Shown here one piece after another: positions 26,828-49,949 of a stretch of 54,332 nt of DNA. The stretch's first letter is position 1; each line of letters begins with the position of its first letter. The notes beneath the pieces are model-generated. The model saw only the letters and a list, made by a program, of their open reading frames with translations. It made no database searches and was not told where the DNA came from. The stretch comes from Vicinamibacteria bacterium (GTDB lineage: Bacteria > Acidobacteriota > Vicinamibacteria > Fen-336), in contig JAFGSN010000187.1 of NCBI GenBank assembly GCA_016934575.1, positions 1 to 54,332 on the forward strand, in the 5' to 3' direction. Made by a program: the position numbers and the translations under genes.

Positions 26828-26870
26828 ATTATATCAGCCCTTTCCGGAAAAAGCACCTCTTTTATATCAG
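26828..26870 (-). promoter_or_regulatory. Promoter/operator region with direct repeats and a palindrome
   Basis: On the plus strand TTATATCAG occurs at 26829-26837 and again at 26862-26870, starts 33 bp apart (about three helical turns), with the palindrome TTTCCGGAAA (26841-26850) between. On the minus strand the first repeat contains a perfect -10 TATAAT (26833-26828); no good -35 is visible. The second repeat overlaps the stop codon of the TPR gene. It is a plausible regulated promoter for the secreted-protein/rho unit. Confidence 0.5.
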
Positions 26871-27526
26871 TTGAAGGGTCTTTCGGGAGGGGGCCATGGA
26901 TCGCCTCGCTGAGCGGATTCATACGCGGCCCGTGCCCCGGGACGATTCTTCCAGAAGTCCGAATCAAGCCTCTGCGCCTCCCTGAAAGCCTCGACTGCTT
27001 CTTCATGCCGCCCGATCCTCGCCAGCGCAAAGCCCAGTGAACCGAAGGCGCTCACGGAATCTGGACGAAGAATCAACGACTTACGTAGGGGAAGCAGTGC
27101 ATCCCAAGGACGCCCCAGACCGAAGAGAATCGTATCTGCCAGCCGAAGATGCGCCTCGGCATCCTCCGGACGAAGCTGCACGAGCTTCTGATAGGCGTCC
27201 GCCGCCTCGTTCCATCGCGCCAGGTTTGCCAGATGGAGCGCAAGCACGCCCTGCGCCACGGATCTGCGCTCCGGGCCAAGCGGCAACAAAAGAGCTTGCC
27301 TGCAGGCCGCGACGCCCTCCTCCTTGCGTGAGGACATGCAAGAATAGAAAGCTTCATGCGGCGCCAGGACGCCCGCCGTCTCCTCCGAACTCGACGCCGA
27401 GGAAAACGCGACAAGAACGGCGCCCACGAACCCAGCGCGGCCGATTCGTCGCCAAACGAGCGACACTGCATTGTCGCGAACAACGCGATTGTCACGGAGT
27501 AATGAAGTTCCGCATAATCTCTTCAT
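26867..27526 (-). CDS. Exported TPR-repeat protein
   Basis: About 219 residues. A hydrophobic stretch IGRAGFVGAVLVAFSSAS near residues 29-46 suggests export with a long n-region. Tetratricopeptide repeats follow: ARWNEAADAYQKLVQLRPED, AEAHLRLADTILFGLGRPWD, then SVSAFGSLGFALARIGRHEE, ending in FREAQRLD. About three to four TPR units make a scaffold for protein-protein contact. Start taken at ATG 27526, since the track's TTG at 27532 is less likely. It is divergent from the DUF4126 gene and ends 150 bp before the unknown secreted-protein gene, which runs in the same direction. Confidence 0.75.
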   Translation of the reverse strand: MKRLCGTSLLRDNRVVRDNAVSLVWRRIGRAGFVGAVLVAFSSASSSEETAGVLAPHEAFYSCMSSRKEEGVAACRQALLLPLGPERRSVAQGVLALHLANLARWNEAADAYQKLVQLRPEDAEAHLRLADTILFGLGRPWDALLPLRKSLILRPDSVSAFGSLGFALARIGRHEEAVEAFREAQRLDSDFWKNRPGARAAYESAQRGDPWPPPERPFN

Positions 27527-27618
27527 CGTCAATCAATCAGCTCATGATCCGGCCGGGTATGCGATGCCGCGTGCGCTTGACGAGAAAAGCATATCGCGAA
27601 AAAGGACACCGCGCTTGC

Positions 27619-27647
27619 TTGACAGCCGCCGCCGCTGATTTTAGGCT
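27619..27647 (+). promoter_or_regulatory. Probable sigma70 promoter of the DUF4126 gene (leaderless)
   Basis: TTGACA, 17 bases, TAGGCT. The -35 is perfect and the spacing ideal. The ATG at 27654 begins only 6 bases after the -10 hexamer, where transcription itself should start, and there is no Shine-Dalgarno, so a leaderless mRNA is predicted. Confidence 0.55.
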
Positions 27648-27653
27648 CGAACC

Positions 27654-28235
27654 ATGACTACGGCGCCCTGGAGCGACGTGCTGCCGTCACTGGCACTGGC
27701 TATCGCTCTCGCCGCCTGCGCGGGCCTGCGCGCCTGGCTGCCGCTGTTCCTGGCCGCCGCGCTCGCGCGCCTGGGATGGCTCGACCTCAACCAATCCTTC
27801 GCCTTTCTCGCGTCCAACCAGGCGTTGATCCTCTTCGGAGCCGCGACTCTGATCGAGATCGCCGCGGACAAGATCCCGGCAGTCGATCATGCCCTGGACG
27901 CGGCGTCAACGGTGATTCGTCCGCTGGCGGGATCGCTCCTAGCCGCTTCGGTCCTTGGTTGGATCAAGGACCCCCTAGCCGCCTTGGCTCTCGGCATCGT
28001 CGTCGGGGCGCCCGCGGCTTTCGTGCCGCACGCCGCCAAGGCCAGCCTACGAACCGTAACGAGCGCGTTGACGGCCGGCATGGCCAATCCCATTCTGAGC
28101 TTCATGGAAGACGTTTTCACCGTCGTGCTGTTCGTCCTCGCGGTGCTCGTGCCCGTGCTGGTCCTCGTGATACTGCTGGGCGCCGCGTACTTCGCTTCGC
28201 GGCGTGCGAGAAGAAGACGACGCCGCTTCGCATGA
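27654..28235 (+). CDS. DUF4126 family membrane protein
   Basis: 193 residues with about five hydrophobic segments. ACAGLRAWLPLFLAAALARLG, LIEIAADKIPAVDHALDAAS and IRPLAGSLLAASVLG are the defining stretches of DUF4126. The AADKIP..DH motif sits between membrane helices. The C-terminus ends in an Arg-rich cytoplasmic tail (RRARRRRRRFA). Function of the family is unknown. It is transcribed from the predicted leaderless promoter and ends 72 bp before the FHA-phosphatase gene, so the two could be co-transcribed. Confidence 0.88.
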   Translation: MTTAPWSDVLPSLALAIALAACAGLRAWLPLFLAAALARLGWLDLNQSFAFLASNQALILFGAATLIEIAADKIPAVDHALDAASTVIRPLAGSLLAASVLGWIKDPLAALALGIVVGAPAAFVPHAAKASLRTVTSALTAGMANPILSFMEDVFTVVLFVLAVLVPVLVLVILLGAAYFASRRARRRRRRFA

Positions 28236-28307
28236 CTCGCGCGGGCCGCACGCGAATGATCGAGTCGCAGCCTGACGGCGCGTACGCGATAGGATGAGTC
28301 GCGCTGC

Positions 28308-29984
28308 ATGCCAAGAATCGAGATGGAGAAAGGCGACGGACGGAGCTGGTCGGTGCCTCTGCGCGGCGATCACGTCACGATCGGCCGCTCGCAAGACAAC
28401 GATATCTGCCTTCCCGACCAATGGCTGTCCCGGCATCATGCCGAGATCCGTCGTCGCGCGAACGATCACTACCTAATAGATCTCGGAAGCCGCAACGGCA
28501 GCTTCATCAACGAGTCTCGGGCGCGAAACGAAGAAAAGCTCAAGCATGGCGATCTCATAAGACTGGGCGAGAACCGGTTGAGATTCCTCGATGATGAGCG
28601 CGAACCGGCGTTCGGTAAGCCGACTCTCCCGACGGAGGCCGTGCCGCCCAGGACAAAAGTCTTCACCATGTCGGAAATGTTCGCCACACACGAGCCTTCC
28701 TTCGTGGAGAACGACGCATCGGCGCTTCAAAACCGTTCCCTTGGGCTGATCGCCGAAACGGCCAGCATCTTGCTCGTCGAGCATCGTCCCCTGCCGGATA
28801 TCTACGAACGCATTCTGTCGTTGTTGATGCGGGCGGTGCCCGCCGAGCGAGCGGCTATTCTTCGCCTCGAAGGCGATCCGCCGGAACCGACGATCAAGGC
28901 TTCCCGCAGTCGCTGCGGCGAGTCCATCGCGCGCATCAGCCGTTCGATCGCGCGCAAGGTCGTGAGGGAACGAGTCGTGCTTCTATTGCCCGACATCATG
29001 GAGGACGCGGACCTCAGCTCACGGGAGAGCATTCTCACGACGGGTATTCGCTCGGCGCTTTGCGCGCCACTTTGGTTCCGCGCTCCGTCTTCGGATCAGG
29101 ACGCGGTCATCGGCCTGGTCTATCTGGACACGCGCCGGCATGACCGCCCCCTGTGCGACGCCGACGTGCCCATCGCGAGCGCCCTGGCCAACATCGCGGC
29201 GGCCAAGATCGAAAACGTGCGCCTGCTCGATGAGAGCATCGAGAAACGGCGTCTCGAGGAGGACATCCGCGTGGCGGCTGAAGTGCAGCGCAGCCTGCTT
29301 CCGCGCGATCTGCCTCGCGTCGCCGGTCATGACCTGGCCGGCTCGACCCGACCCTGTCATGCCGTGGGAGGCGACTACTACGATCTGCTTGCCGATGATC
29401 ACCGGCTACTCCTGTCCCTCGGCGACGTCTCGGGCAAAGGAACGAGCGCCGCGCTGCTCATGAGCGTCCTGCGCGCCAGCGCGCGCGCCCACTGGCGCGA
29501 CGACGCGCCCGCGGCGGCCATGGCGCGGATCAATCGGACGGTCTTCGAAAACACGCCGGCCAATCGTTACGTGACCTTCTTTCTCGCGGCGCTCGACATA
29601 CGCGACGATCGACTTCGTTTCGTCAACGCCGGCCACAATCCCGGCCTGCTGATTCGCGCCGGCGGCGGCGTTGAACGCCTCCGGGACGGCGGCGTGGCCC
29701 TGGGCGTATTCGAAGAGGCGCATTATGAAGAGGGCGAAACGCGGCTGCTGCCCGGCGACACGTTGCTCCTGTACTCGGACGGCGTGACCGAAACATGGAA
29801 CGAGCGGGAGGAGGAGTTCGGCGAGGCGGGCCTGATCGGCGTGGTCACGCGCTGCCGCCGGCTCGGCGCGTCCGCGATCGAGTCCGAGATCTACCAGGAG
29901 CTCGAACGCTTCGCTCCCGGGACGCGCGCCATGGATGATCGGACTCTTCTCGTCGTCAAGCGCCTTCCATGTCCCGTCGCGTAG
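28308..29984 (+). CDS. FHA-GAF-PP2C (SpoIIE-type) protein phosphatase
   Basis: 558 residues in three domains. FHA at 1-100: VTIGRSQDNDICLPDQWLSR and DLGSRNGSFIN carry the phosphothreonine-binding Arg, Ser, His and Asn. GAF at about 145-320, with AIGLVYLDTRRHDRP-like ending. SpoIIE/RsbU-type PP2C at about 335-555: AVGGDYYDLL, LGDVSGKGTSAALLMS, FVNAGHNPGLLI and LLYSDGVTE provide the metal-binding aspartates. Such enzymes dephosphorylate anti-sigma antagonists or other Ser/Thr-phosphoproteins; the FHA domain should dock onto a phosphoprotein. No Ser/Thr kinase or STAS gene is in the window. The pseudo-receiver gene follows 108 bp downstream in the same direction. Confidence 0.93.
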   Translation: MPRIEMEKGDGRSWSVPLRGDHVTIGRSQDNDICLPDQWLSRHHAEIRRRANDHYLIDLGSRNGSFINESRARNEEKLKHGDLIRLGENRLRFLDDEREPAFGKPTLPTEAVPPRTKVFTMSEMFATHEPSFVENDASALQNRSLGLIAETASILLVEHRPLPDIYERILSLLMRAVPAERAAILRLEGDPPEPTIKASRSRCGESIARISRSIARKVVRERVVLLLPDIMEDADLSSRESILTTGIRSALCAPLWFRAPSSDQDAVIGLVYLDTRRHDRPLCDADVPIASALANIAAAKIENVRLLDESIEKRRLEEDIRVAAEVQRSLLPRDLPRVAGHDLAGSTRPCHAVGGDYYDLLADDHRLLLSLGDVSGKGTSAALLMSVLRASARAHWRDDAPAAAMARINRTVFENTPANRYVTFFLAALDIRDDRLRFVNAGHNPGLLIRAGGGVERLRDGGVALGVFEEAHYEEGETRLLPGDTLLLYSDGVTETWNEREEEFGEAGLIGVVTRCRRLGASAIESEIYQELERFAPGTRAMDDRTLLVVKRLPCPVA

Positions 29985-30011
29985 ATTCCCGGGCGCGCTT
30001 CTTGACGTTGC

Positions 30012-30063
30012 CGGCGTGTTCACGCCGATCGATTCCATCAAGTCCGCCGCGGGGCGGTATACT
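30012..30063 (+). promoter_or_regulatory. Hairpin and possible -10 element before the pseudo-receiver gene
   Basis: CGGCGTG-TT-CACGCCG (30012-30027) is a compact 7-bp inverted repeat, and TATACT at 30058-30063 resembles a -10 box 30 bases before the start codon; no clear -35. The hairpin may end the phosphatase transcript while the -10 restarts transcription. Confidence 0.3.
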
Positions 30064-30092
30064 ACGAAGGAACTGTTGCGGAATGCGCTTCC

Positions 30093-33000
30093 ATGGCCGA
30101 GATCCGCGCGCTAGTCGTCGATAACGATGAACGCTTCATGGAGCTGCTCCGCTCCTCGCTGGACCCATATGGCGTCCGAATCGACGTCGCCAGCGACGCC
30201 AACGACTGTCTTGACCGCGTCGCCAGCCTGAGATTGGACGTTGTTTTCATTTCCGTGGAAGCTCCGGATAAATCGGGCTTTAAGCTGTTCAGTCGCGTCA
30301 AGGGGCTGAGCAAGGTTCTTCCGGTGGTCCTCGTCACATCGACCGTCCCTCCGGCGGACATGACCCTGCATCAGAAGCTCAAGATCCACGCGGACGATTA
30401 CTGGAACAAAAGCGATCTCACGCCGGAATCCGTCGTCAACCGCATGGCTAAGATCGTTCCGCTCAATGAACGACATCGCGCGGAAGCCGATGCGACTGAA
30501 AACGAAGACTTCATCGTCGTGGAGGACGCCGAGCTGGACGAGTTATTGAGCGATATCTCGCGGGCCGAGCGATCCATGTCGGAGAAAGCCGCGAAAAATT
30601 CGCCGCCCGACGCGCATCAAGAGCGCCTCGTGGCTCACGTGCACTCTCCCGTGCGCGGATTGAGCCTGGACGAGCTGGAGGCGCTCGTGGCCGAGCTGTC
30701 GGACTCGAGCTCCGCGCCGGCGTCCGCCGCCGCCTCTCCGACGACAAACCGCGGCGCCGACGGCAGTTCGGAAGAAAACGCGGAAATCCTGCGGCTGCGA
30801 AACGAGCTGGACGAAGCGCGGCGCATCGCTCGCGCTTCCCCGTTTTCTCAGGATTTCTTCCGTCTGCTCGAGAACGTTCGCGACAAGGAAAAGGAGATCT
30901 TCGACCTCAACGTGAAGCTCGAGGCGCGCAAGCGCGAGCTGTCATCAAGGACCGGAACGGCGCGCCAGTTGGCGGAGCAGCTTCTCGGAGCGCTCAGGTT
31001 AAGGGAGCATGAGCAGGAAATCATCTCCACGATGGAAGACGATCTCGGAGCGATTCGCGCCGAGCTGGAGAGAGAGCGCGCGGAGCGAGAGACGCTCCGC
31101 CTGCAACAGGACGCGGAAATCAAGCGTCTCGAAGCCGATTTCTCCCTCGAACGCGAACGCCATGCCGAGGCCTGCCGCCGCTATGAAACGACGATCACGG
31201 AAAACAGAACCCGTCACGCGGATGAGCTGAGAGACGAGGCGCAGGCCCGTCTTACCACCCTCGAGGCTATCGAGACGCGCCTGCGCGAAGAAAAGAACCA
31301 CGCCGTCGAGAACGCCATCGAGCGTGAGCGCCGGGAGCGCGACGAACGAATCCAGGAGCTGAAACGCGCCCACGAAGAGCAACTCGCCGCCCAGGAGCGT
31401 GAGCACGAGGCCGCGCGCAAGGGCGCTTCCGAGGAGCTGGCGCAGATACACGCGGCGCTGGAGAAACGCCTGGAAGAGATGCGCCGCGAGCGCGATGCGC
31501 GCGCCAGTCAACTCGCCGACGAGCACGCCCAGGCTTTGCTTGTCAAGGAGCAAGAGCACAAGAACGCGCTCGCGTCCATCGAGCGTCGATTGCATGATGA
31601 AGGTCTACGCGAGATCGAGGAGATCCGGCGGCAACACGCGGCGCAGTTGCGCGATAACGAGACGCTCCATGCCCAGGCGTTGGCCGAGGCCGAGCGCCGG
31701 CATCAGGGCGTCCTGGCGGAGATCGAGAAGCGGACGACGAGAGAGAAGAATGAAACGATACGCGCCTCGTCGTCCGAATGGGAAGGCCGACTGGCGCAGT
31801 TACGGCGCGAGCACGCCCAGGCGCTCGCGGCGCGCGAAGAGGAACACGAGCGGAAACGTCATGACATGCAGGCGCAGATCTCCGTGCAGTTGGGCCACGA
31901 GCGCGAGCAGACCGCCGAGCTCCGTCGCGTCGTGGACGAGATGTCGGCCGCGCGCGGCAGGCTCGAGCGACAACTCGACGAAACCCGCGATCAGCTCGAA
32001 TCGAAGCTGGCTGCCCTGGAAGTGCGCCACGCCGAGGCGCTGCACGAGGTCGAACAGAACCGTCTGATGGATCTTCAGACGGCCGAGAAACACCTGGCCG
32101 AGGAGAAGTCTCGGGCAATCGCCGCCGCGGAAGCCGGGTGGCGGCGGAAACTGGAACAGGCGCAACACGAGCGCGACGAGGCGATCGAGGCGTCGCGTCG
32201 GGATCTCGAGGCGCGAATGGCCGCCGCCGAGAAGTCGCAACGCGATCTGCGCGAGCGCGAGGCCTCGGAGATCACGGCAATGCGCCTGGAACTGAACCGG
32301 ATGCAGCGGGAATCGAGAGAAACGGAGTCGCGGCACGCGGAAGCGCTGCGTTTGGCCGATAAACAGCGAGACGACGCGCTGCGGGCCCTTGAAGGCCGCC
32401 TGAACGAGAAAAAGACCCAGGCGCTTTCGGCGCTCGACAACGAATGGCGCGAAAAGATGGAACAAGAGCGCAGGCGACATGCGGAAGCGCTGGCGCTTCT
32501 GAGACAGGAGCACGAAGCCGCATCCTCCGTTCAAGAAATGCAACTCCGGGAAATGCGGGAACGCGGGGGCGAGGAGATCAGATCTCTGCGCGCCGAAGCC
32601 CAGGATCTGCGCGACAAATTGTCGCTTATACAAGCCCAGCAATCCGAGGGACATCGACAGGCGGAAGTCGAACGCGACGCCGCTCTACAGGCCCTTGAGG
32701 CGCTTCTCGCCGAGAAGCAAGCGCAGGCGCTCGCGAAAACCGAGGAACAGTGGCGTCAAAAACTGAACGCGGCCAACCGCGAGAAGACCGATCTCCTCAT
32801 GACCGTGCAACGCGAACGCGAGCAGCTTGACGCTTCGGCGCACCAAGCGCAGGGCGAGGCGCTTGAAAAGAAAGAGGGCGAGCTCAAGATCGTCATGGCG
32901 GAAAACGCACGCCTCGAACAACAGCTCACGGAATCAAAGAGCGTCGTCGCGAATCATGAGCGCGCCATTGATTCGCTCCGGCGCGAGTCCGCCGATCAAG

Positions 33001-33206
33001 CTCAGACGATCGCCTCCCTCAAGGCGATGATCGGTGATTTTACCGTCGCTCCTGCGGGGCCGGATCAACCGATTCCAAAGGTCGCGGCCGCCGCCAAGCC
33101 GAATATGCCGCCACCCGCGACGCCCGGCGCAACGACACCCAAGCCCGCCGGGTCGTCTAGTCCGAAGGTGCCGCAGAAGACAACATCCGGATCAAATCGG
33201 CGATGA
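30093..33206 (+). CDS. FrzS-like protein: pseudo-receiver domain plus long coiled coil
   Basis: 1037 residues. Residues 1-125 fold as a response-regulator receiver: the acidic pair is D10/D12 (VVDNDE), T82 and K106 (YWNK) are kept, but the phospho-acceptor site in LDVVFISVEAPDKSG is Ser54 instead of Asp. Residues about 220-970 are an almost uninterrupted coiled coil rich in Glu, Arg, Ala and Gln, with recurring blocks such as 'RRHAEAL..L..EHE' and 'ALEALLAEKQAQAL'. The tail is Pro/Thr/Lys-rich. This is the architecture of Myxococcus FrzS, a polar protein controlling type IV pilus motility whose receiver also cannot be phosphorylated; orthology is an inference. It is a likely cytoplasmic scaffold, about 50 bp of its 3' end overlapping a convergent small gene. 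Confidence 0.85.
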   Translation: MAEIRALVVDNDERFMELLRSSLDPYGVRIDVASDANDCLDRVASLRLDVVFISVEAPDKSGFKLFSRVKGLSKVLPVVLVTSTVPPADMTLHQKLKIHADDYWNKSDLTPESVVNRMAKIVPLNERHRAEADATENEDFIVVEDAELDELLSDISRAERSMSEKAAKNSPPDAHQERLVAHVHSPVRGLSLDELEALVAELSDSSSAPASAAASPTTNRGADGSSEENAEILRLRNELDEARRIARASPFSQDFFRLLENVRDKEKEIFDLNVKLEARKRELSSRTGTARQLAEQLLGALRLREHEQEIISTMEDDLGAIRAELERERAERETLRLQQDAEIKRLEADFSLERERHAEACRRYETTITENRTRHADELRDEAQARLTTLEAIETRLREEKNHAVENAIERERRERDERIQELKRAHEEQLAAQEREHEAARKGASEELAQIHAALEKRLEEMRRERDARASQLADEHAQALLVKEQEHKNALASIERRLHDEGLREIEEIRRQHAAQLRDNETLHAQALAEAERRHQGVLAEIEKRTTREKNETIRASSSEWEGRLAQLRREHAQALAAREEEHERKRHDMQAQISVQLGHEREQTAELRRVVDEMSAARGRLERQLDETRDQLESKLAALEVRHAEALHEVEQNRLMDLQTAEKHLAEEKSRAIAAAEAGWRRKLEQAQHERDEAIEASRRDLEARMAAAEKSQRDLREREASEITAMRLELNRMQRESRETESRHAEALRLADKQRDDALRALEGRLNEKKTQALSALDNEWREKMEQERRRHAEALALLRQEHEAASSVQEMQLREMRERGGEEIRSLRAEAQDLRDKLSLIQAQQSEGHRQAEVERDAALQALEALLAEKQAQALAKTEEQWRQKLNAANREKTDLLMTVQREREQLDASAHQAQGEALEKKEGELKIVMAENARLEQQLTESKSVVANHERAIDSLRRESADQAQTIASLKAMIGDFTVAPAGPDQPIPKVAAAAKPNMPPPATPGATTPKPAGSSSPKVPQKTTSGSNRR

Positions 33207-33348
33207 TAATCGCCTCTTCCGCCCCCGATTGCAGATAGATCGGTATTGAGGCGCGATAGTGTTGACAGGCCTTGAGAAGCAGCTTGCGCTTCGGATCAGT
33301 AAGCCGCAAGGCGAACGCTTGATCTTCCGACTCTTCGGCGGAACTCAC
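33157..33348 (-). CDS. Small helical protein, 63 residues, unknown
   Basis: GTG start preceded by GGGGAG at good spacing; the ORF track starts six codons upstream. The product contains LRLTDPKRKLLLKACQHYRA, then SIPIYLQSGAEEAIIIADLI, giving two predicted amphipathic helices, and is composed like a genuine protein, unlike the Arg-rich shadow ORFs nearby. It follows the paralog pair in the same direction (76 bp after the end of the second) and its 3' end lies antisense to the last 50 bases of the pseudo-receiver gene. No family recognised. Confidence 0.5.
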   Translation of the reverse strand: MSSAEESEDQAFALRLTDPKRKLLLKACQHYRASIPIYLQSGAEEAIIIADLIRMLSSAAPSD

Positions 33349-33424
33349 CCGAAGCGCTCCCCACACAGAGCAATCGAGTCGTCACTCATCGCTCTATCGA
33401 ACGACCGATCAGAACAGACGGTGA

Positions 33425-34174
33425 TTATTCTGCGTCCGGCGCTTCTTCCTTCTTCTTGCCGGAAGAAGACGTGCGGATCCGGCCCTCCTCGGCAACCGAG
33501 ACGCGTTTGCGCGGCGGCGTCTCCTGACGATCGCCTACCGTGACCAGGAGCACTGGAGGAATGACTTCCTCCATCTGCTTCCGATCGTCGAAGAAAGCGT
33601 TGCGGATCGCGGCGGCGTGGATCGCCACTTCCTCCATGTCACGGTTGCCGGCGTCCTCCAGCTCCGAGAGCTTCTCGAGCACTTCGAGAATCGCCCGATT
33701 GAGCGGATCGTCCTGACCCTTCTCCTTGTCCAGGTGCTTGCCCAAAGCATTCACGTCTTGAATGGAGAGCGGATAGATCCGATACCCGTCCTTGGGCGAG
33801 CTGTACACGGACTGCAAGACGCCGAGTATCACCGAAAGGTTTTTGTGATAGATCCCGCCCTTGTGCCAGCGCGTCATCATCGCCAGGATGCGCCCGACGA
33901 TGAACTCGTTGGGCTGCACGCCCGAGAGCAAGAGGAACGGATCCCTGTCTCCGATGAGAGCGTCGATGACCCAGTGATTCTCGATCTCGAGCATACGCAG
34001 GAAGACCGGGTAGTTCTCGGGAGTGATCCCGATCGTGCTCAGGAAGGTCGCGTAGGTGACCGCGGCCTCGACAGCCTCGGTCGTCCGGCATCCGAAGATC
34101 CCTTGCAGAAGCCGGTTCTCGATCTCCGAGATCTGAGCTTCAGTCCAGACTGGCTCGTCTATAACGTTGTTCAT
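33425..34174 (-). CDS. Unknown soluble protein, tandem paralog A
   Basis: 249 residues without signal peptide or membrane segment. It is clearly paralogous to the neighbouring gene at 34237: shared blocks include NYPVFLRMLEIENHWV (NYPLFLKMLEIENHYV there), DPFLLLS, and LGVLQSVYSSPKDGYRIYPL, followed by LGKHLDKEKGQ. By eye about half of the core residues are identical. Predicted mostly helical. Paralog A has an extra charged tail from residue 215 (RKRVSVAEEGRIRTSSSGKK). AAGGGG precedes the ATG. I do not recognise the family. It is transcribed toward the FrzS-like gene, with the small 63-residue gene downstream. Confidence 0.8.
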   Translation of the reverse strand: MNNVIDEPVWTEAQISEIENRLLQGIFGCRTTEAVEAAVTYATFLSTIGITPENYPVFLRMLEIENHWVIDALIGDRDPFLLLSGVQPNEFIVGRILAMMTRWHKGGIYHKNLSVILGVLQSVYSSPKDGYRIYPLSIQDVNALGKHLDKEKGQDDPLNRAILEVLEKLSELEDAGNRDMEEVAIHAAAIRNAFFDDRKQMEEVIPPVLLVTVGDRQETPPRKRVSVAEEGRIRTSSSGKKKEEAPDAE

Positions 34175-34236
34175 CGTGTTACCCCTTCAACCCTCACGCT
34201 GTCCCGTAACCGTTGGTTCCCGAATCGTTCGCGCGG

Positions 34237-34929
34237 CTAGTCCGCGAACAAGGAACGCGGGGCCGTCTCGTCTGCGCGATAGTCGCCCCTTACCAGTAGA
34301 ACTTGCGGGATGCAGTCCTCCAGCATCTTCGTGTTGTCGAAGAAGTTCCCGCGGATTCTGATCGCCTGCCGAGCCACCTGTTCCATCAAATCGTCTGAGC
34401 GCACGCCCTCAAGGGAACCGACGCGGTCGAGGATGTCCAGGATGCAGCGGTTGCGTTCGTCCTTCTGGCCCTTGTCCTTCTCGAGGTGCTTGCCAAGGTT
34501 GTCCACGTCGGCGATGCTCAGTTTATAGATCTTGTAGCCATCCCGCGGCGAGCTGTAGGCATTCTGCAACACGCCCAGAACGATGGCCAATGTCTTGGGG
34601 TAGATCCCGCCCGGACGCCATCGCGTCAGCAACATGAAGCACTTGGCGATGAGATATCCATTGGGCGGAATGGTGGAGAGGAGTAAAAAAGGATCGCTGT
34701 TCCCCAAGAGCGCGTCGAGCACGTAATGATTTTCGATCTCGAGCATCTTCAGGAACAGTGGGTAGTTCTCGGTGTCCAGGCCAGAGAGCCTCAGAAATCG
34801 CGCATAGCTCGTCGCCGCCTCCACCGATTCCGGCGTTCGGCTCGCCATGATTTGCTGGAGAATCTTGTTCTCCACCTGTAAGATCGACTCCCGTGCCCAG
34901 AGCTTTGACGCTGCTTCCTGTTTCGCCAT
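34237..34929 (-). CDS. Unknown soluble protein, tandem paralog B
   Basis: About 230 residues, cytoplasmic. Same family as paralog A, with the blocks ENYPLFLKMLEIENHYVLDA, DPFLLLS, LLTRWRPGGIYPK, VLGVLQNAYSSPRDGYKIY and LGKHLEKDKGQ. The conserved 'GGIY.K' and 'YSSP.DGY.IY' motifs are too specific to be coincidence and suggest a shared binding surface, perhaps a heterodimer. ATG 34929 was chosen because GGAAGGAG lies 11 bases upstream, whereas the track's GTG at 34941 is directly adjacent to it. 62 bp separate it from paralog A, same direction, so the two are probably one operon. Confidence 0.8.
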   Translation of the reverse strand: MAKQEAASKLWARESILQVENKILQQIMASRTPESVEAATSYARFLRLSGLDTENYPLFLKMLEIENHYVLDALLGNSDPFLLLSTIPPNGYLIAKCFMLLTRWRPGGIYPKTLAIVLGVLQNAYSSPRDGYKIYKLSIADVDNLGKHLEKDKGQKDERNRCILDILDRVGSLEGVRSDDLMEQVARQAIRIRGNFFDNTKMLEDCIPQVLLVRGDYRADETAPRSLFAD

Positions 34930-35146
34930 CTTGGTGCTCACTCCTTCCCGGCCGCGAGACGGCCCGGATCCGTCTTTTTGAAGTCCGTTAGATCGTCATT
35001 CGGCACTCTAATCCGCTTTAGGGTGGGTTGTCAAGAAGGCAAGAGCCTCCATACGATCCTGAAGATAAAGGACATGCTTGCTCGCCGGATCCCACGCCGC
35101 ACCGATGACGGGGCCAACGCGAAAGACGATCCGAAGCAGGCGGCCA

Positions 35147-35974
35147 TCAATCCTCGTCCAGGCCTTCAGCGTCCTCGAAACGCTCCGTCCCCGTAGCATC
35201 AACCTCCATGACCGGATCCTCTTCACCAAGGCTCGCCTCCGACGGTCGCGGCGCCGCGATCGCTTTTTTAAGGCCTTCGACGTCGACTTCCTCCCCCAGA
35301 ACCTCGGCGAATTCCTCGATTCTCGGCAGCTCCGAAAGATCCTTGAGTCCGAAATGAACGAGAAATTCCTTGGTCGTTCCGTACAGCATCGGACGACCGA
35401 CGACGTCCTTGCGACCCTCGATCCTGATCAGGCGCCGTTCGAGCAGCGTCTTGATCACACCGCCGGACTTGACGCCGCGCAGCTCGATGATCTCGGGCAG
35501 AGTCACCGGCTGCTTATAAGCGATCACGGCCAGAGTCTCGAGAGCCTGCACCGACAGGCGCGTCGGCGCCTTGGGGTGCAACAACTCGCGCACCCAGTCG
35601 TTGTATTCAGGGCGCGTCGTGATCTGGTATCCGCCCGCCACCTCGACGAGCTGCAAGCCGCGTCCCGCGCGGGCATAGTCGTTCCGAAGATCGTCGAGAG
35701 CGGATGACCACTCCGCCTGTTCGACGGCGTCGCCGATGACCCGCGTGATTTCGCGCGTCGTGACCGGCTGCGGCGACGCAAAGATGAGCGCCTCGAGCAC
35801 GGCGCGCAGATCTTCAGGCGGAAGCGTAAGCGCCTCATCGCCTGATGAGCCCGTCTCTCGCGCCTCGCCGACATCCGACGCGATGTCACCGGCATTGGCG
35901 TTCTCCGGCCGGACTTCTGCCGTCTCATAAAGCGGCGGTTCCTTTTCGCGTTCTTCTTCCATTTCTTCAAGCAC
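35147..35974 (-). CDS. scpB: Segregation and condensation protein B
   Basis: ScpB forms part of the SMC-ScpA-ScpB condensin complex that organises the nucleoid. Tandem winged-helix domains span about residues 52-215: AVLEALIFASPQPVTTREIT opens the first, and RLSVQALETLAVIAYKQPVT, RGVKSGGVIKTLLERRLI and GRPMLYGTTKEFLVHFGL are signature segments of the second. The N-terminal 50 and C-terminal 40 residues are acidic and probably disordered. GTG 35974 overlaps the scpA stop by 8 bases; ATG 35962, just after that stop, is an alternative start. Co-translation with scpA fits the complex. Confidence 0.95.
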   Translation of the reverse strand: MLEEMEEEREKEPPLYETAEVRPENANAGDIASDVGEARETGSSGDEALTLPPEDLRAVLEALIFASPQPVTTREITRVIGDAVEQAEWSSALDDLRNDYARAGRGLQLVEVAGGYQITTRPEYNDWVRELLHPKAPTRLSVQALETLAVIAYKQPVTLPEIIELRGVKSGGVIKTLLERRLIRIEGRKDVVGRPMLYGTTKEFLVHFGLKDLSELPRIEEFAEVLGEEVDVEGLKKAIAAPRPSEASLGEEDPVMEVDATGTERFEDAEGLDED

Positions 35975-36863
35975 CCGCCGGCGGAGCGATCGTCTCGGGT
36001 CCGATGGGACGGAAAATCCGGATCGGCCCGAACAGCCCCCGCTGATACACTTTGATGCGACGAAGTCGGATCAACTCAAGCAGCGCCAGGAAAGTCACGA
36101 TCATGTCGGACTTGGTCCGCTCGTGCTCGAACAGATCGAGGAACTCGATCGACTCGCCTTCTCGCAACAACGTGAAGATCTCCCCCATGCGCTCTTCGAT
36201 CGACTTGCCCGACGGCCGCACTTCGTGCGCCAGCAGAACCTTGCGCCGATCGAGAAGCTCCTTGAAAGCGCCGATCAAGTCGAACAGTCCGACCTCCAGA
36301 TTCTCGTCGTCCGCGTCGCCGAAGGACGGCACGGCCCCGTCGGGACGGATCCACGTCGCGGCGCGAATCTCGCGCTTCTGATGAAGCAGGCCCGCCGCTT
36401 CCTTGTAGCGCTGGAACTCCAACAAGCGCTGCACGAGTTCTTCGCGCGGATCTTCATAGGGCTCCTCGCCCTCGGCTTCGGCCGGCGCGAGAGGCACGAG
36501 CATCTTGGATTTGATATGGATCAGAGTGGCCGCCATTACCAGGAACTCTCCGGCCAGCTCGAGATTCAGCTCCTTCATCAGATCGAGATATTCCATATAC
36601 CGCCGCGTGATGGGCGCGATGGGAATATCGTGAATGTCGATCCGTTCCCGGCGAATGAGGTAGAGCAGAAGGTCGAGAGGGCCTTCGAAAATCGGAAGCT
36701 GGATTCTGGGAACGTCTTCAGGCAGCGTCGACTCGACGCCCGCGGGAACGTCGACCTTATCCGGACGGGAGGGCGCGGCGGCGGCGTCATCGGCCGGCGA
36801 CGGGGCCCCCTCGCCTTCCTGGCCGATCTCTCGATCGTCCGTCACGTCGTCATCCACGCTCAC
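35967..36863 (-). CDS. scpA: Segregation and condensation protein A
   Basis: ScpA is the kleisin of the bacterial SMC complex. The N-terminal kleisin motif QLPIFEGPLDLLLYLIRRER, then IDIHDIPIAPITRRYMEYL and EFLVMAATLIHIKSKMLVP are diagnostic; the C-terminal winged helix is in MIVTFLALLELIRLRRIKVY. About 60 acidic, low-complexity residues precede the motif. The track ORF runs into trpS (to 37193); GTG 36863, 25 bases after the trpS stop, is the sensible start. The order protease-trpS-scpA-scpB recurs in several Gram-negative phyla. Confidence 0.95.
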   Translation of the reverse strand: MSVDDDVTDDREIGQEGEGAPSPADDAAAAPSRPDKVDVPAGVESTLPEDVPRIQLPIFEGPLDLLLYLIRRERIDIHDIPIAPITRRYMEYLDLMKELNLELAGEFLVMAATLIHIKSKMLVPLAPAEAEGEEPYEDPREELVQRLLEFQRYKEAAGLLHQKREIRAATWIRPDGAVPSFGDADDENLEVGLFDLIGAFKELLDRRKVLLAHEVRPSGKSIEERMGEIFTLLREGESIEFLDLFEHERTKSDMIVTFLALLELIRLRRIKVYQRGLFGPIRIFRPIGPETIAPPAGA

Positions 36864-36888
36864 GATCGCGCTTTGTCCAATCGCCGGT

Positions 36889-37878
36889 TCAGTGCTGAAC
36901 GCCCATGGCCGTTCTCGCCTCGTCCATGGTCGCCCGGGCACGCTCGCGCGCCCGACGAGACCCCTCGCGCAGAATGTCCCAGACCGTGTCCGGGCGAGCC
37001 GCAAGCTCCGGTCGTCGCGCATGAATGGGGCCAAGTCGTTCCAGGACATGATCCGTGAGCCTGGCCTTGCAGTCGAGGCAGCCGATCCCGGCGCCGCGGC
37101 ATCCGGCCGCGGCCCACTCGAGCGTCGCTGGCGAAGAGAAGGCTCGATGCAAATCGAACACCGGGCACTTCTCCGGATCGCCGGGATCGACACGACGCTT
37201 TCGATTCGGATCGGTGATCATGGGTTTGATCTTCCGGCGCAGCTCCTCGGGCGTGTCCTTGAGAAAGATCGCATTATCGAACGATTTCGACATCTTGCGT
37301 CCGTCGGTTCCGGGAATCCGCGGCGAAGGCGTGAGCAGCGTTTTCGGCTCTGGGAAAACCGGCCGGTACAGGTTGTTGAAGCGGCGCACGACCTCGCGCG
37401 CCAGCTCGATGTGGGGCGCTTGATCCTCACCCACCGGGACCGCGTCGCTCTTGTAGATGACGATATCGGCCGTCTGGAGCAGGGGATATCCGAGAAATCC
37501 GTAGGTTGACAGATCGCGGCCCATGAGTTGTTGCTGTTGTTCTTTATAAGTCGGAACCCTCTCGAGCCAGGGCAGCGGCACGATCATCGACAGCAACAGG
37601 TGCAACTCGGCGTGCTCCGGCACCAGGCTCTGCACCATGAGCGTCGAGCGCTCCGGATCCAGGCCCGCCGCCAGCCAGTCGACGGCGACCTCGAGGATGT
37701 TCCGGCGTATGGCAGATGGCTCCGCGTAGTCCGTCGTCAACGAGTGCCAGTCCACAATGCCGAAAACGCATTCGTACGAATCCTGCAGTTGAATCCAGTT
37801 GTCAAGCGCGCCCATCAGGTTCCCGAGATGCAGGGCGCCCGTGGGGCGCATTCCGGAGAAAATCCGCGGTTTATTCAT
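36889..37878 (-). CDS. trpS: Tryptophan--tRNA ligase
   Basis: Class I aminoacyl-tRNA synthetase, 329 residues, normal length. The HIGH-type motif is in SGMRPTGALHLGNLMGALDN, and the KMSKS loop reads GRKMSKSFDNAI. VPVGEDQAPHIELAREVVRR is the standard Trp-specific segment. Residues about 255-280 carry four cysteines in CPVFDL.., GCRGAGIGCLDCKARL, consistent with the Cys motif seen in a subset of bacterial TrpRS. ATG 37878 was chosen; the track starts at TTG 37890. Its start is 4 bases from the stop of the protease gene, so co-transcription is certain in practice. Confidence 0.96.
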   Translation of the reverse strand: MNKPRIFSGMRPTGALHLGNLMGALDNWIQLQDSYECVFGIVDWHSLTTDYAEPSAIRRNILEVAVDWLAAGLDPERSTLMVQSLVPEHAELHLLLSMIVPLPWLERVPTYKEQQQQLMGRDLSTYGFLGYPLLQTADIVIYKSDAVPVGEDQAPHIELAREVVRRFNNLYRPVFPEPKTLLTPSPRIPGTDGRKMSKSFDNAIFLKDTPEELRRKIKPMITDPNRKRRVDPGDPEKCPVFDLHRAFSSPATLEWAAAGCRGAGIGCLDCKARLTDHVLERLGPIHARRPELAARPDTVWDILREGSRRARERARATMDEARTAMGVQH

Positions 37879-37882
37879 GGCT

Positions 37883-38539
37883 TCAGGCAATCAGAAGAAG
37901 CAACTGGTGAACCAGCCTGACGACGGGCCCCAACACGAAACCGATGGCTCCCGAGAAAACGAGCAGAATGAGAATCCACATCCCGTATGGCGCAATGACG
38001 CGATCGTAACGCTCGGAAAAGGAGCGCGGAAGCCCCCAGGAGACGATCCACGAACCGTCAAGAGGCGGCAATGGTATCAGATTGAAGATCATCAAGACCA
38101 CGTTGAGAATGACGCCGGCCTTCAAAACCGCAAAAATCGGAACGAACAAGTCGCCGTACAGGCCGAGCCGGCTCATCAACGCGTATAGCGCCGAAGCAAC
38201 GATCGCCAAAACGAGATTGGACGCCGGCCCCGCGGCCGACACGAGCACATGCCCTCGAGCCTGCTGTCGGAAGTTGCTCGGAACGACAGGCGTCGGCTTG
38301 GCCCACCCGAACAACGGAAGACCATTCACGAATATCATGAGCAGCGGAATGACAACCGTTCCCATCGGATCGATGTGACGGATCGGATTGAGACTGACGC
38401 GGCCGAGACGCATCGCGGTGTCGTCGCCCATGCGATGGGCCGCCCAGGCGTGCGCCGATTCATGCGCCGAGAGGCTGAAAAGCAGGACAACAAAGAAGAT
38501 CAATCCTTGAATGACGACGTCTCCGGACATACCGCTCAT
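37883..38539 (-). CDS. Site-2 protease family (M50) membrane metalloprotease
   Basis: 218 residues, about six membrane segments. The zinc site HESAH (residues 26-30) lies within helix FFVVLLFSLSAHESAHAWAA, and the third ligand Asp is in NLIPLPPLDGSWIV. NPIRHIDPMGTVVIPLLMI and GPASNLVLAI are typical of the small FtsX-less M50B subgroup (SpoIVFB/Rv2869-related, no PDZ domain). These enzymes cut substrates inside the membrane; many orthologs next to trpS have no known substrate. ATG at 38539. Confidence 0.92.
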   Translation of the reverse strand: MSGMSGDVVIQGLIFFVVLLFSLSAHESAHAWAAHRMGDDTAMRLGRVSLNPIRHIDPMGTVVIPLLMIFVNGLPLFGWAKPTPVVPSNFRQQARGHVLVSAAGPASNLVLAIVASALYALMSRLGLYGDLFVPIFAVLKAGVILNVVLMIFNLIPLPPLDGSWIVSWGLPRSFSERYDRVIAPYGMWILILLVFSGAIGFVLGPVVRLVHQLLLLIA

Positions 38540-38907: not shown

Positions 38908-40707
38908 TCACGTCTCCTTCACGGCGAGATGCCGCCTGATTCGCCGCGCCAGGCTCTCGCCGACGACGCCGGCCAGATCGGCCTCGCTCGCCAGCTTCAA
39001 GCGGCGCAGGGAGCCGAAGTGAGCCAATAATCGCCGGCGTCGCGCCGGACCGACGCCGGGAATCTCGTCGAGCCCCGAGCGCAGCAGGCTCCTGGAACGA
39101 GAGGCGCGGTGAAAGCGAATCGCGAAGCGATGCGCCTCGTCGCGCATGCGCTGCAAGAGCTGCAAAACCGGCGAGTGCCGCGGGAGAACGATCGGCTCCG
39201 CGCGCCGACCGACGAAGATCAGTTCCTCGCGCTTGGCGAGACCGGCTGCCGGCCGGTCGCCGAGTCCGATCTGTTCGAGCGCTTCAAGCGCCGCCCCCAA
39301 CTGCCCCCTGCCGCCGTCGACGAGCACGAGGTCCGGGAGCATCCGGCCTTCTTCGAGCAGCCGCCGGTATCGACGAGACACCGCCTCGCGTATCGCCGCG
39401 ACGTCGTCGGGTTTGTCCGTAACGCCACGAACGCGATACTTGCGATAAGCGGACTTGAGAGGACGCGCGTTCTCGAAGCAAATCATCGCGGCGACAACAT
39501 CCGACCCTTGCGTGTTCGAGACGTCAAAGCACTCGATGCGTCTCGGCGCGTCTTCGAGCCCCAGCAAATCGCGGAGCGCGCACAAGATCTCCTCGGATTG
39601 ACGCCGCGGGCGCCTCCATTCCAAATCGAACGCCAATCGCGCGTTGCGCGCCAGAAGATCGAGCAGGCGCAACTTTTCGCCGCGTCGTGGCACGCGAATG
39701 CTCACGCGCGCGCCGCGTTTTTGCGACAACCACGACTCGATCAGACCACGCTCCGGGAAATCATCCTGGACGAGGATCTCTCGCGGCACGTCCTTGTCGG
39801 ATCCGTAATACTGCTGAAGCGTCGCGGAGAGCGCTTTGTCGGGCTCCTCCAGGCGGTCGAGCAGGAAAGCCTCGCGTTCGACCACCCGGCCGCCGCGAAC
39901 GACAAAGACCTGGAGCGCGGCGCGCGCGCCCTCGACGTGCGCATAGAAAACGTCGCGATCCCGCCTCGCGATCGTTGTGATCTTCTGGGGGGCGGCGAGC
40001 CGTTCGAGGTCGCGAATCTGATCGCGCAACGCAGCCGCATCCTCGAAGCGTTCGTCTGCGGAAGCGGACGACATCCGTGCGCGTAAAGACGCCAAGACCT
40101 CGTCGGCTCTTCCATCAAGAAACAAACGCGCCTCCTCGCAGGAACGACGATAACGCGCGCGAGAACAGATGGTTTCCACGCACGGCGCGAGACAGCGGCC
40201 GATCTGATGCTGAAGGCAGGGACGGCGACGGCGGCCGTCGAGCTTTTCGTGACAGGAACGAATCCCGAAGGCTTTGTGAACGACCGCCGCCGTCCGTCGC
40301 GACAACCCGGCCGGTATGTACGGCCCGCCATATGCGCCGCCGTCCGCGTCCACGCGCCGCACGACGTGCAGCCGCGGATATTCCTCGGCCAGCGTGAGCT
40401 TGAGATAAGGATGATTCTTGTCATCGCGCAAAAGAACGTTGTACGGAGGACGATGGCGCTTGATGAGATTGTTCTCGAGCGCGAGCGCCTCGACCTCGGA
40501 GTCGGTGACGATCACTTCGATATCGACGATCTCCGAGACAAGCGACCGCTTGTGCGGATCCAACGGCTGCTTTGGCTGAAAGTAGGTGCGCGCGCGATCG
40601 CGCAGGGAGCGCGCCTTGCCGACGTAGAGAATCCGGCCGCCGTCATCACGAAAGAGATAGACGCCCGGCCGCGACGGCAGGCCGTCGAGTTTTTCCCGCA
40701 GACTCAT
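38908..40707 (-). CDS. uvrC: Excinuclease ABC subunit C
   Basis: About 599 residues, full length. UvrC makes both incisions in nucleotide excision repair. N-terminal GIY-YIG nuclease: GVYLFRDDGGRILYVGKARS, with ENNLIKRHRPPYN. A Cys-rich linker RRPCLQHQIGRCLAPC follows, then the UVR (UvrB-binding) helix ERFEDAAALRDQIRDLERL, and the RNase H-like C-terminal nuclease with ECFDVSNTQGSDVVAAM and DLVLVDGGRGQLGAALEAL. Tandem helix-hairpin-helix: LDEIPGVGPARRRRLLAHFG. ATG 40707 preferred over the adjacent GTG 40710. uvrA and uvrB are not in the window. Confidence 0.97.
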   Translation of the reverse strand: MSLREKLDGLPSRPGVYLFRDDGGRILYVGKARSLRDRARTYFQPKQPLDPHKRSLVSEIVDIEVIVTDSEVEALALENNLIKRHRPPYNVLLRDDKNHPYLKLTLAEEYPRLHVVRRVDADGGAYGGPYIPAGLSRRTAAVVHKAFGIRSCHEKLDGRRRRPCLQHQIGRCLAPCVETICSRARYRRSCEEARLFLDGRADEVLASLRARMSSASADERFEDAAALRDQIRDLERLAAPQKITTIARRDRDVFYAHVEGARAALQVFVVRGGRVVEREAFLLDRLEEPDKALSATLQQYYGSDKDVPREILVQDDFPERGLIESWLSQKRGARVSIRVPRRGEKLRLLDLLARNARLAFDLEWRRPRRQSEEILCALRDLLGLEDAPRRIECFDVSNTQGSDVVAAMICFENARPLKSAYRKYRVRGVTDKPDDVAAIREAVSRRYRRLLEEGRMLPDLVLVDGGRGQLGAALEALEQIGLGDRPAAGLAKREELIFVGRRAEPIVLPRHSPVLQLLQRMRDEAHRFAIRFHRASRSRSLLRSGLDEIPGVGPARRRRLLAHFGSLRRLKLASEADLAGVVGESLARRIRRHLAVKET

Positions 40708-40829
40708 CACCCCTCAATTATGCGGGAGAAATCGAGAAGCCGAAGGAAGCGCGCCGCGCCGCCGTGACGCGCCGCGCCGCTCCGGAGCAAGCCGGAATCG
40801 AACGCGGCTCATGCGCCTGGAACCCGACT

Positions 40830-49087: not shown

Positions 49088-49441
49088 GGGGGCGTCACGG
49101 TTTCGACGGGAACGCCGTCCCCGAGGGAGGCAAGCCGAGCGTTCTACCGGCTCGTTGATACGGTGGAAAACCTTAACTGCCAACGATAACTTGGCTCTGG
49201 CTGCCTAAAATATAGGCAACCCGCTTCTCCGGTTCCCCGCCCACGGGCGTCGGAAGAAGCGTCATCAATGTGGGCTGGCCCATGAGCTCTCGGTCCGGGG
49301 GCTTCGGGCAAGATCAATCGGACTAGCCGCCGCCGGTTTCGTCCGATCTTCACGGCGACGGCGAATCAACAGGTCGGACTAAGCTTGTAGGCTCTCTCGC
49401 AGGCACGCTTCCGGACGCGGGTTCGACTCCCGCCGCCTCCA
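49088..49441 (+). ncRNA. ssrA: Transfer-messenger RNA
   Basis: One-piece tmRNA. 5' GGGGGCG pairs with 3' CGCCTCC (one G-U); the T arm is GCGGG-TTCGACT-CCCGC; the 5' D-like region is CACGGTTTCGACGGG. CCA is not encoded (A then GATC). The resume codon is GCC at 49179 and the tag reading frame encodes ANDNLALAA, stop TAA at 49206. With Clp/Lon proteases it tags stalled-ribosome products; RNase R, nearby, is its usual decay partner. It stands alone between oppositely oriented genes. Confidence 0.97.
49179..49208 (+). CDS. tmRNA proteolysis tag ORF
   Basis: GCC AAC GAT AAC TTG GCT CTG GCT GCC TAA, i.e. ANDNLALAA, ending in the LAA degron recognised by ClpXP-type proteases. Preceding CCTTAACT is the usual upstream context of the resume codon. 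Confidence 0.93.
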   Translation, partial: ANDNLALAA

Positions 49442-49502: not shown

Positions 49503-49949
49503 TCAACTCTTGCGTTTTGCGCCGCCCGTTGCATGTTGTGAGATGTAATCACGCACAAGCCTCTCGATGCGTTCTCGGTCCTTCATGCTAAGCCGCTCGA
49601 ACCGGACGCCGCAGCCGGGCGGCAAGCTGTGCACGGGATGCGCCTGGCGCGGATTCTGCCAGGCGACCACGGACCGCGCCTCGACCTCATTCTCGCTGCC
49701 GGGCAAACCGAAGCGACAGACGACGCGCCGCCCGAGCTCGGGCATCAGGTCCAGCGCGATGTAAGCGCCAAGCACGTTGATGTTGACGATGAAAGCCTCG
49801 GCCGTCGAGCCGTCCTCGAACTCCAAATGGCTGCGTCGCACGAACGGGATACGAAGCATGCCGCTCGAGCGGCGGTCGTTCGGCGGCTGCGTGCCCGCGC
49901 GCGGCGCTTCGGCCGCTCTTCGGGCCGGATCACGCTTGCTCGTGGCCAT
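49503..49949 (-). CDS. PilZ domain protein with degenerate c-di-GMP motifs
   Basis: 148 residues: a basic unstructured N-terminus of about 32 residues, then a PilZ barrel (RIPFVRRSHLEFEDGSTAEA, FIVNINVLGAYIAL, VVAWQNPRQAHPVHSLPPGC, GVRFERLSMKDRERIERLV). The canonical second motif [D/N]xSxxG reads NINVLG, lacking the Ser, and the RxxxR spacing is altered, so c-di-GMP binding is doubtful. It is downstream of pgi on the same strand (73 bp gap). PilZ domains without binding residues act as protein adaptors in some systems. Confidence 0.75.
   Translation of the reverse strand: MATSKRDPARRAAEAPRAGTQPPNDRRSSGMLRIPFVRRSHLEFEDGSTAEAFIVNINVLGAYIALDLMPELGRRVVCRFGLPGSENEVEARSVVAWQNPRQAHPVHSLPPGCGVRFERLSMKDRERIERLVRDYISQHATGGAKRKS

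Follow-up and report, generated by a model that had tools for sequence, protein, structure and literature searches.

A four-gene unit with a FrzS-type scaffold in a Vicinamibacteria contig, a candidate module of subcellular organization

What brings together a FrzS-type scaffold gene, a very small gene and two tandem paralogs in an acidobacterial genome? FrzS-type scaffolds are polarity factors of Myxococcus. We addressed this question on contig JAFGSN010000187.1 (54,332 nucleotides, analyzed at full length and here called the window), which belongs to a 3.98-Mb metagenome-assembled genome (MAG) of a Vicinamibacteria bacterium. An initial annotation had described five genes between 28308 and 34929, all of which exist at about these positions, and had read them as one set: a phosphatase with FHA, GAF and PP2C domains, the scaffold, a small helical protein (S) and the paralogs A and B. 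In our analysis the scaffold, S, A and B do form such a set, and the phosphatase is a bystander. We propose, with a rough probability of 0.42, that positions 30093 to 34941 hold a horizontally mobile four-gene unit of a subcellular-organization module, in which an A/B assembly would be positioned by the FrzS-type scaffold or by ParA. The gene calls of the unit are as follows.

30093..33206, + strand: FrzS-type scaffold, 1037 aa; pseudo-receiver at about residues 1 to 125, linker, ASPFS at 248 to 252, proline-free charged stretch at 251 to 986
33157..33366, − strand: S, 69 aa; conserved C..YR..(I/L)P.YL domain
33425..34174, − strand: paralog A, 249 aa; predicted helical, with a charged low-complexity C-terminal tail; new family
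34237..34941, − strand: paralog B, 234 aa; predicted helical, always upstream of A; new family

Over 217 aligned columns, A and B share 53% identity. Among 60 relatives, a sample that counts the window's own genome (G000), A/B occur in four: G000 and three genomes that all belong to another family of the same class (f10), with B 75 to 77% identical to its f10 counterparts. All 13 other genomes of the window's own family in this sample lack A/B, and a 396-genome sample of the phylum contains them only in G000. A scan of genome contigs recovered 18 A/B loci, distributed over Acidobacteria, Spirochaetota, Desulfobacterales and one MAG labeled "Proteobacteria" (SZUA-336); identity to B is 70 to 77% where B is full length. 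Phylum samples centered on a spirochaete, on a Desulfobacterales genome and on SZUA-336 hold A/B in 11/296, 1/297 and 1/282 genomes, respectively. In each of the 16 loci long enough to hold both genes, B comes before A. In a tree of 69 members, window-type A and B form separate clades (starred support), and each clade spans Acidobacteriota, Thermodesulfobacteriota, SZUA-336 and Spirochaetota, indicating that the pair moved together. We call window-type A/B type 1; type 2 comprises the 10 A/B-positive genomes of the spirochaete sample besides its center, most of which hold three to five divergent A/B copies, largely in one array.

The pseudo-receiver gene co-occurs with A/B and is linked to them across phyla, as the initial grouping had implied. 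Among the 60 relatives, the scaffold profile scores at least 127 bits in exactly the four A/B genomes (G000, G030, G034 and G040) and at most 57.8 bits in the remaining 56; the six rows of the profile include some from G000 and G040 and none from G030 or G034. Across a second set of 46 genomes, the match is strong in G428, G432, G434 and G435 (at least 408 bits) and in G424 (91.6 bits), it stays at or below 62.8 bits in the 21 A/B-negative genomes, and no spirochaete, with or without A/B, has a strong match. The scaffold gene adjoins A, convergently in the window and in G040 and in the same direction in the fetched loci L026, L030, L032 and L033; in G034 it lies near A and is apparently split over two contigs. 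Because A/B and the scaffold are linked in Acidobacteriota and Desulfobacterales, the paralogs are not scattered independently of it in these groups. Fisher tests for co-occurrence of the unit genes gave p values of 2e-6 and 1e-10 with phylogeny ignored, and the scaffold and S profiles were built partly from genomes that were later counted. G030 carries this type of scaffold gene three times, each time on a different contig (L097, L098 and L100).

Does S belong with these genes? Its gene and the scaffold gene share 50 nucleotides in a tail-to-tail overlap, and S is a conserved domain rather than a chance open reading frame. A profile of 46 positions finds S in 17 of the 46 genomes of the second set, nine of which were not used to build it: 17/19 with type-1 A/B, 0/10 with type 2 and 0/17 without A/B (0/27 for the last two together). 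The small gene was therefore rightly counted as part of the set. The two type-1 genomes without S are those in which A/B are cut by contig ends. S comes after A in the loci outside the spirochaetes. In spirochaete loci, S forms the C-terminal portion of a larger protein, and the gene for this protein overlaps a ParA gene (AAA_31, 147 bits) by 19 nucleotides; the overlap is found in 4/4 spirochaete loci with clean calls. A, B and S thus co-occur and are linked across phyla, and S is linked to ParA in spirochaetes. No ParA is found among the genes next to the window unit (26867 to 37193).

We next asked how far the scaffold resembles FrzS. Its receiver domain is recognized with 47.6 bits and has Ser at the phospho-acceptor position in the window, and a receiver profile of nine rows finds FrzS as its best PDB match (66.5 bits). 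H93 and Y103 are invariant in 9/9 scaffolds and align to FrzS His92 and Tyr102; the window receiver has H93, H99, A100 and Y103. Passages of the FrzS report (PMC1974792) state that His92 and Tyr102 are both required for S-motility and leading-pole localization, and that the Asp closest to the usual position is dispensable. We compared 42 receiver rows in the fetched loci, where the 17 strong rows represent 11 distinct genes, with repeat copies under several locus numbers. Strong rows have H93 in 17/17, H99 in 15/17 and a phospho-Asp in 0/17; among weaker-matching receivers, H93 occurs in 1/25, H93 and H99 together in 0/25 and the phospho-Asp in 24/25. Judged by these alignments, the FrzS likeness described in the initial annotation holds at the residue level.

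The FrzS-type pseudo-receiver precedes a very long charged stretch that is probably helical. In the window this tail is highly charged and free of proline from residue 251 to 986, and an [S/A/T]SPFS motif stands ahead of the tail in 9/9 scaffolds that include this region. Heptads left no signal in a global Fourier test; a windowed test, used in its place, gave heptad enrichment with z of at least 4.6 in 6/9 scaffolds.

A and B match no family in Pfam or NCBIfam (30 members tested) and none in PHROG or PADLOC. Against PDB sequences their best E value is 0.39, which assigns them to no solved-structure family by sequence, and PDB sequence searches with profiles of A/B, S and further neighbor genes yielded nothing better. 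In the open-access literature we found no account of an A/B-like family, nor of any link between such a family and a FrzS-type scaffold. The AlphaFold2 model of A has weak ARM/HEAT-type matches (Foldseek best E 0.06, VIA best Z 6.9). With pLDDT values of 55 for B and 56 for A, the models are too low in confidence to support a fold claim, and we dropped it.

The spirochaete loci add a different set of neighbors. In type-1 spirochaetes, SpoIIE, HATPase_c_2 and STAS genes are no more than about 9 kb away from A/B, and alpha/beta hydrolase genes are also among the neighbors. The SpoIIE/HATPase/STAS set is not beside the window unit, where only the bystander PP2C is found. These loci, with ParA and partner-switching genes and no scaffold, support spatial organization or signaling generally, not gliding particularly. 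In type-1 spirochaetes a 358-aa gene directly follows A (L024:11497-12573 and six orthologs); it has two similar halves by eye and no Pfam or PDB match. Loci L060 to L069 hold A/B paralogs arrayed in tandem, and several of these arrays also include a metallophosphatase gene and a 305-aa gene bearing a DRNPNNY motif. By eye and by motif, the 305-aa gene of these distant spirochaete arrays looks kinase-like; it has no match in Pfam or PDB.

How did the unit come to lie in this genome? Its flanks in the window are as follows.

27654..28235, + strand: DUF4126 gene; old neighbor of the phosphatase and left flank of the insertion
28308..29984, + strand: FHA-GAF-SpoIIE/PP2C phosphatase, 558 aa; bystander by context, outside the unit
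35147..37890, − strand: trpS-scpA-scpB; right flank of the insertion, also conserved where relatives lack the unit

The phosphatase (FHA 76.6 bits, GAF 40.3 bits, SpoIIE-type PP2C 160.2 bits) lies near DUF4126 without the scaffold, A or B in 7/7 own-family stretches fetched, and among the A/B-positive f10 genomes the closest homologs of the phosphatase, 40 to 42% identical, are on other contigs. For these two reasons we regard it as a bystander and rejected it as a unit member. On the other side, trpS, scpA and scpB are present without A or B in all six own-family trpS stretches fetched; uvrC is present in five, the exception being G003, whose stretch begins 2.3 kb before trpS. The unit thus lies between two blocks that stand apart from it in relatives. 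The TrpS of this contig is 72 to 79% identical to that of own-family genomes and 63 to 65% to that of f10, indicating that the contig belongs to its genome; contamination was rejected for this stretch, as the own-family identity of TrpS, encoded 2 kb away, reaches 79%. In a test for a compositional trace of transfer, GC is lower in A (0.59) and B (0.57), and GC3 is similar to that of the neighbors. Transfer accounts most simply for the linked, co-occurring unit, the alternative being loss from all other own-family genomes.

Some further genes were seen around the unit and its counterparts. The initial annotation had mentioned PilZ proteins elsewhere in the window; we confirmed a single gene (49503-49949, − strand). 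A tmRNA gene (49088-49441) has the tag ANDNLALAA. Both in the window (38908-40710) and in one Desulfobacterales genome (L026:5472-7292), a uvrC gene, identified by eye, is no more than 5 kb away from B, possibly by chance. At L026:422-2607, 7 to 10 kb upstream of B, there are PilZ, DUF4388/cNMP-binding and Ras/Arf-type GTPase genes (the last MglA-like by eye), and uvrB and uvrC, again named by eye, lie between these genes and B. This Ras/Arf-type GTPase gene, 7 kb from B, was seen in L026 only. Two f10 genomes have a GGDEF gene upstream of B, as read by eye from the translations.

Taken together, the proposed module would work as follows. A and B would form a hetero-assembly, with S acting as its adaptor. 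The FrzS-type scaffold would place this assembly in the cell in Acidobacteriota, Desulfobacterales and SZUA-336, and ParA would do so in spirochaetes. As in FrzS, partner binding by the output face of the scaffold (H93/Y103) would be independent of Asp phosphorylation. A broader version, which we consider doubtful, is that A, B and S are the cargo side of a new mobile positioning system, with one cargo core, two unrelated machines (FrzS-type scaffold and ParA) and S as the common adaptor.

Several findings weigh against the positioning module. No strong scaffold is found in the 8 type-1 spirochaete-clade and the 10 type-2 A/B genomes, and the same 10 type-2 genomes have no S; A/B-family proteins can therefore work without S or the scaffold, given type-1 spirochaetes without the scaffold and type-2 genomes without both. 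G437 and G438, the genomes with A/B cut by contig ends, lack the scaffold as well as S, and the scaffold and A/B are on different contigs in G030 and G424. The margin of FrzS over YycF (63.2 bits), the PDB receiver that comes next, is just 3 bits. Enrichment of heptads is modest in the window (z = 2.8) and in L033 (1.9) and absent in G424 (−0.3), and the AlphaFold2 models of A and B are poor. Finally, the view of ParA and the scaffold as alternatives is drawn from gene content.

Could a Ser/Thr phospho-switch, based on partner switching or on a kinase/phosphatase pair, instead have A/B as its output, with no positioning role for them? We think this unlikely. The SpoIIE, HATPase_c_2 and STAS genes of type-1 spirochaetes would fit it, as would a Metallophos gene near type-2 arrays, Pkinase genes in L066 and, below the cut-off, L061, and, in L022, a Pkinase-TPR gene that immediately follows S. 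However, the phosphatase type differs between lineages, and the Acidobacteriota and Desulfobacterales loci have no conserved phosphatase or kinase neighbor, the window PP2C being a bystander. It is less probable again that A/B are structural, building a polymer or lattice whose cytoskeletal partner is the coiled-coil scaffold. The identity of B across phyla is as expected for proteins held by many contacts, most carriers in the second spirochaete group have several divergent tandem paralogs, and the scaffold is very long and helical; yet we saw no filament signature, and the fold of A/B is unsolved.

The compact, transferred and patchy character of the unit would also suit an accessory mobile function such as anti-phage defense. 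We regard this as very improbable: PADLOC and PHROG gave no match, the genes have no toxin or nuclease domain, and no relative was found in viral contigs or plasmids. That the genes are chance neighbors with no functional link does hold for the phosphatase, but for the unit itself it is scarcely credible, given the co-occurrence of its four genes and their linkage across phyla (the Fisher values above, which ignore phylogeny).

The positioning module that we favor may represent a mechanism, so far undescribed, by which bacteria place something within their cells. The abstract of PMC12632262 describes the switching of pseudo-receiver domains as a mystery. The functional FrzS His/Tyr pair, found in a linked unit that includes a new protein family, in three other groups of uncultured bacteria, would offer this field new partners to test, and if S is indeed a shared adaptor, one cargo would switch between two positioning machines.

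Three known systems invite comparison. Partner-switching modules (RsbU/RsbW/RsbV type; SiaABCD) share the SpoIIE, HATPase_c_2 and STAS genes near spirochaete A/B, but this set is not in the window interval, and A, B and S match none of their known components. ParA cargo positioning resembles the spirochaete loci, where the ParA (AAA_31) gene overlaps a partner gene with the C-terminal S domain; it differs in that the cargo would be A/B, the partner family is absent from the libraries searched and ParA is not near the window unit. A third likeness is to FrzS of Myxococcus xanthus, and also to AglZ. The scaffolds differ in their tails, which span 431 to 1069 residues versus a coiled coil of 258 residues in FrzS according to passages of PMC1974792, in the added [S/A/T]SPFS motif and in their linkage to A/B/S; neither Frz genes nor pilus genes were seen in these loci. 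What they share with FrzS is the lack of a phospho-Asp, the His92/Tyr102 pair, the H.KL(K/R).HAD.Y stretch and a long C-terminal domain that is probably helical.

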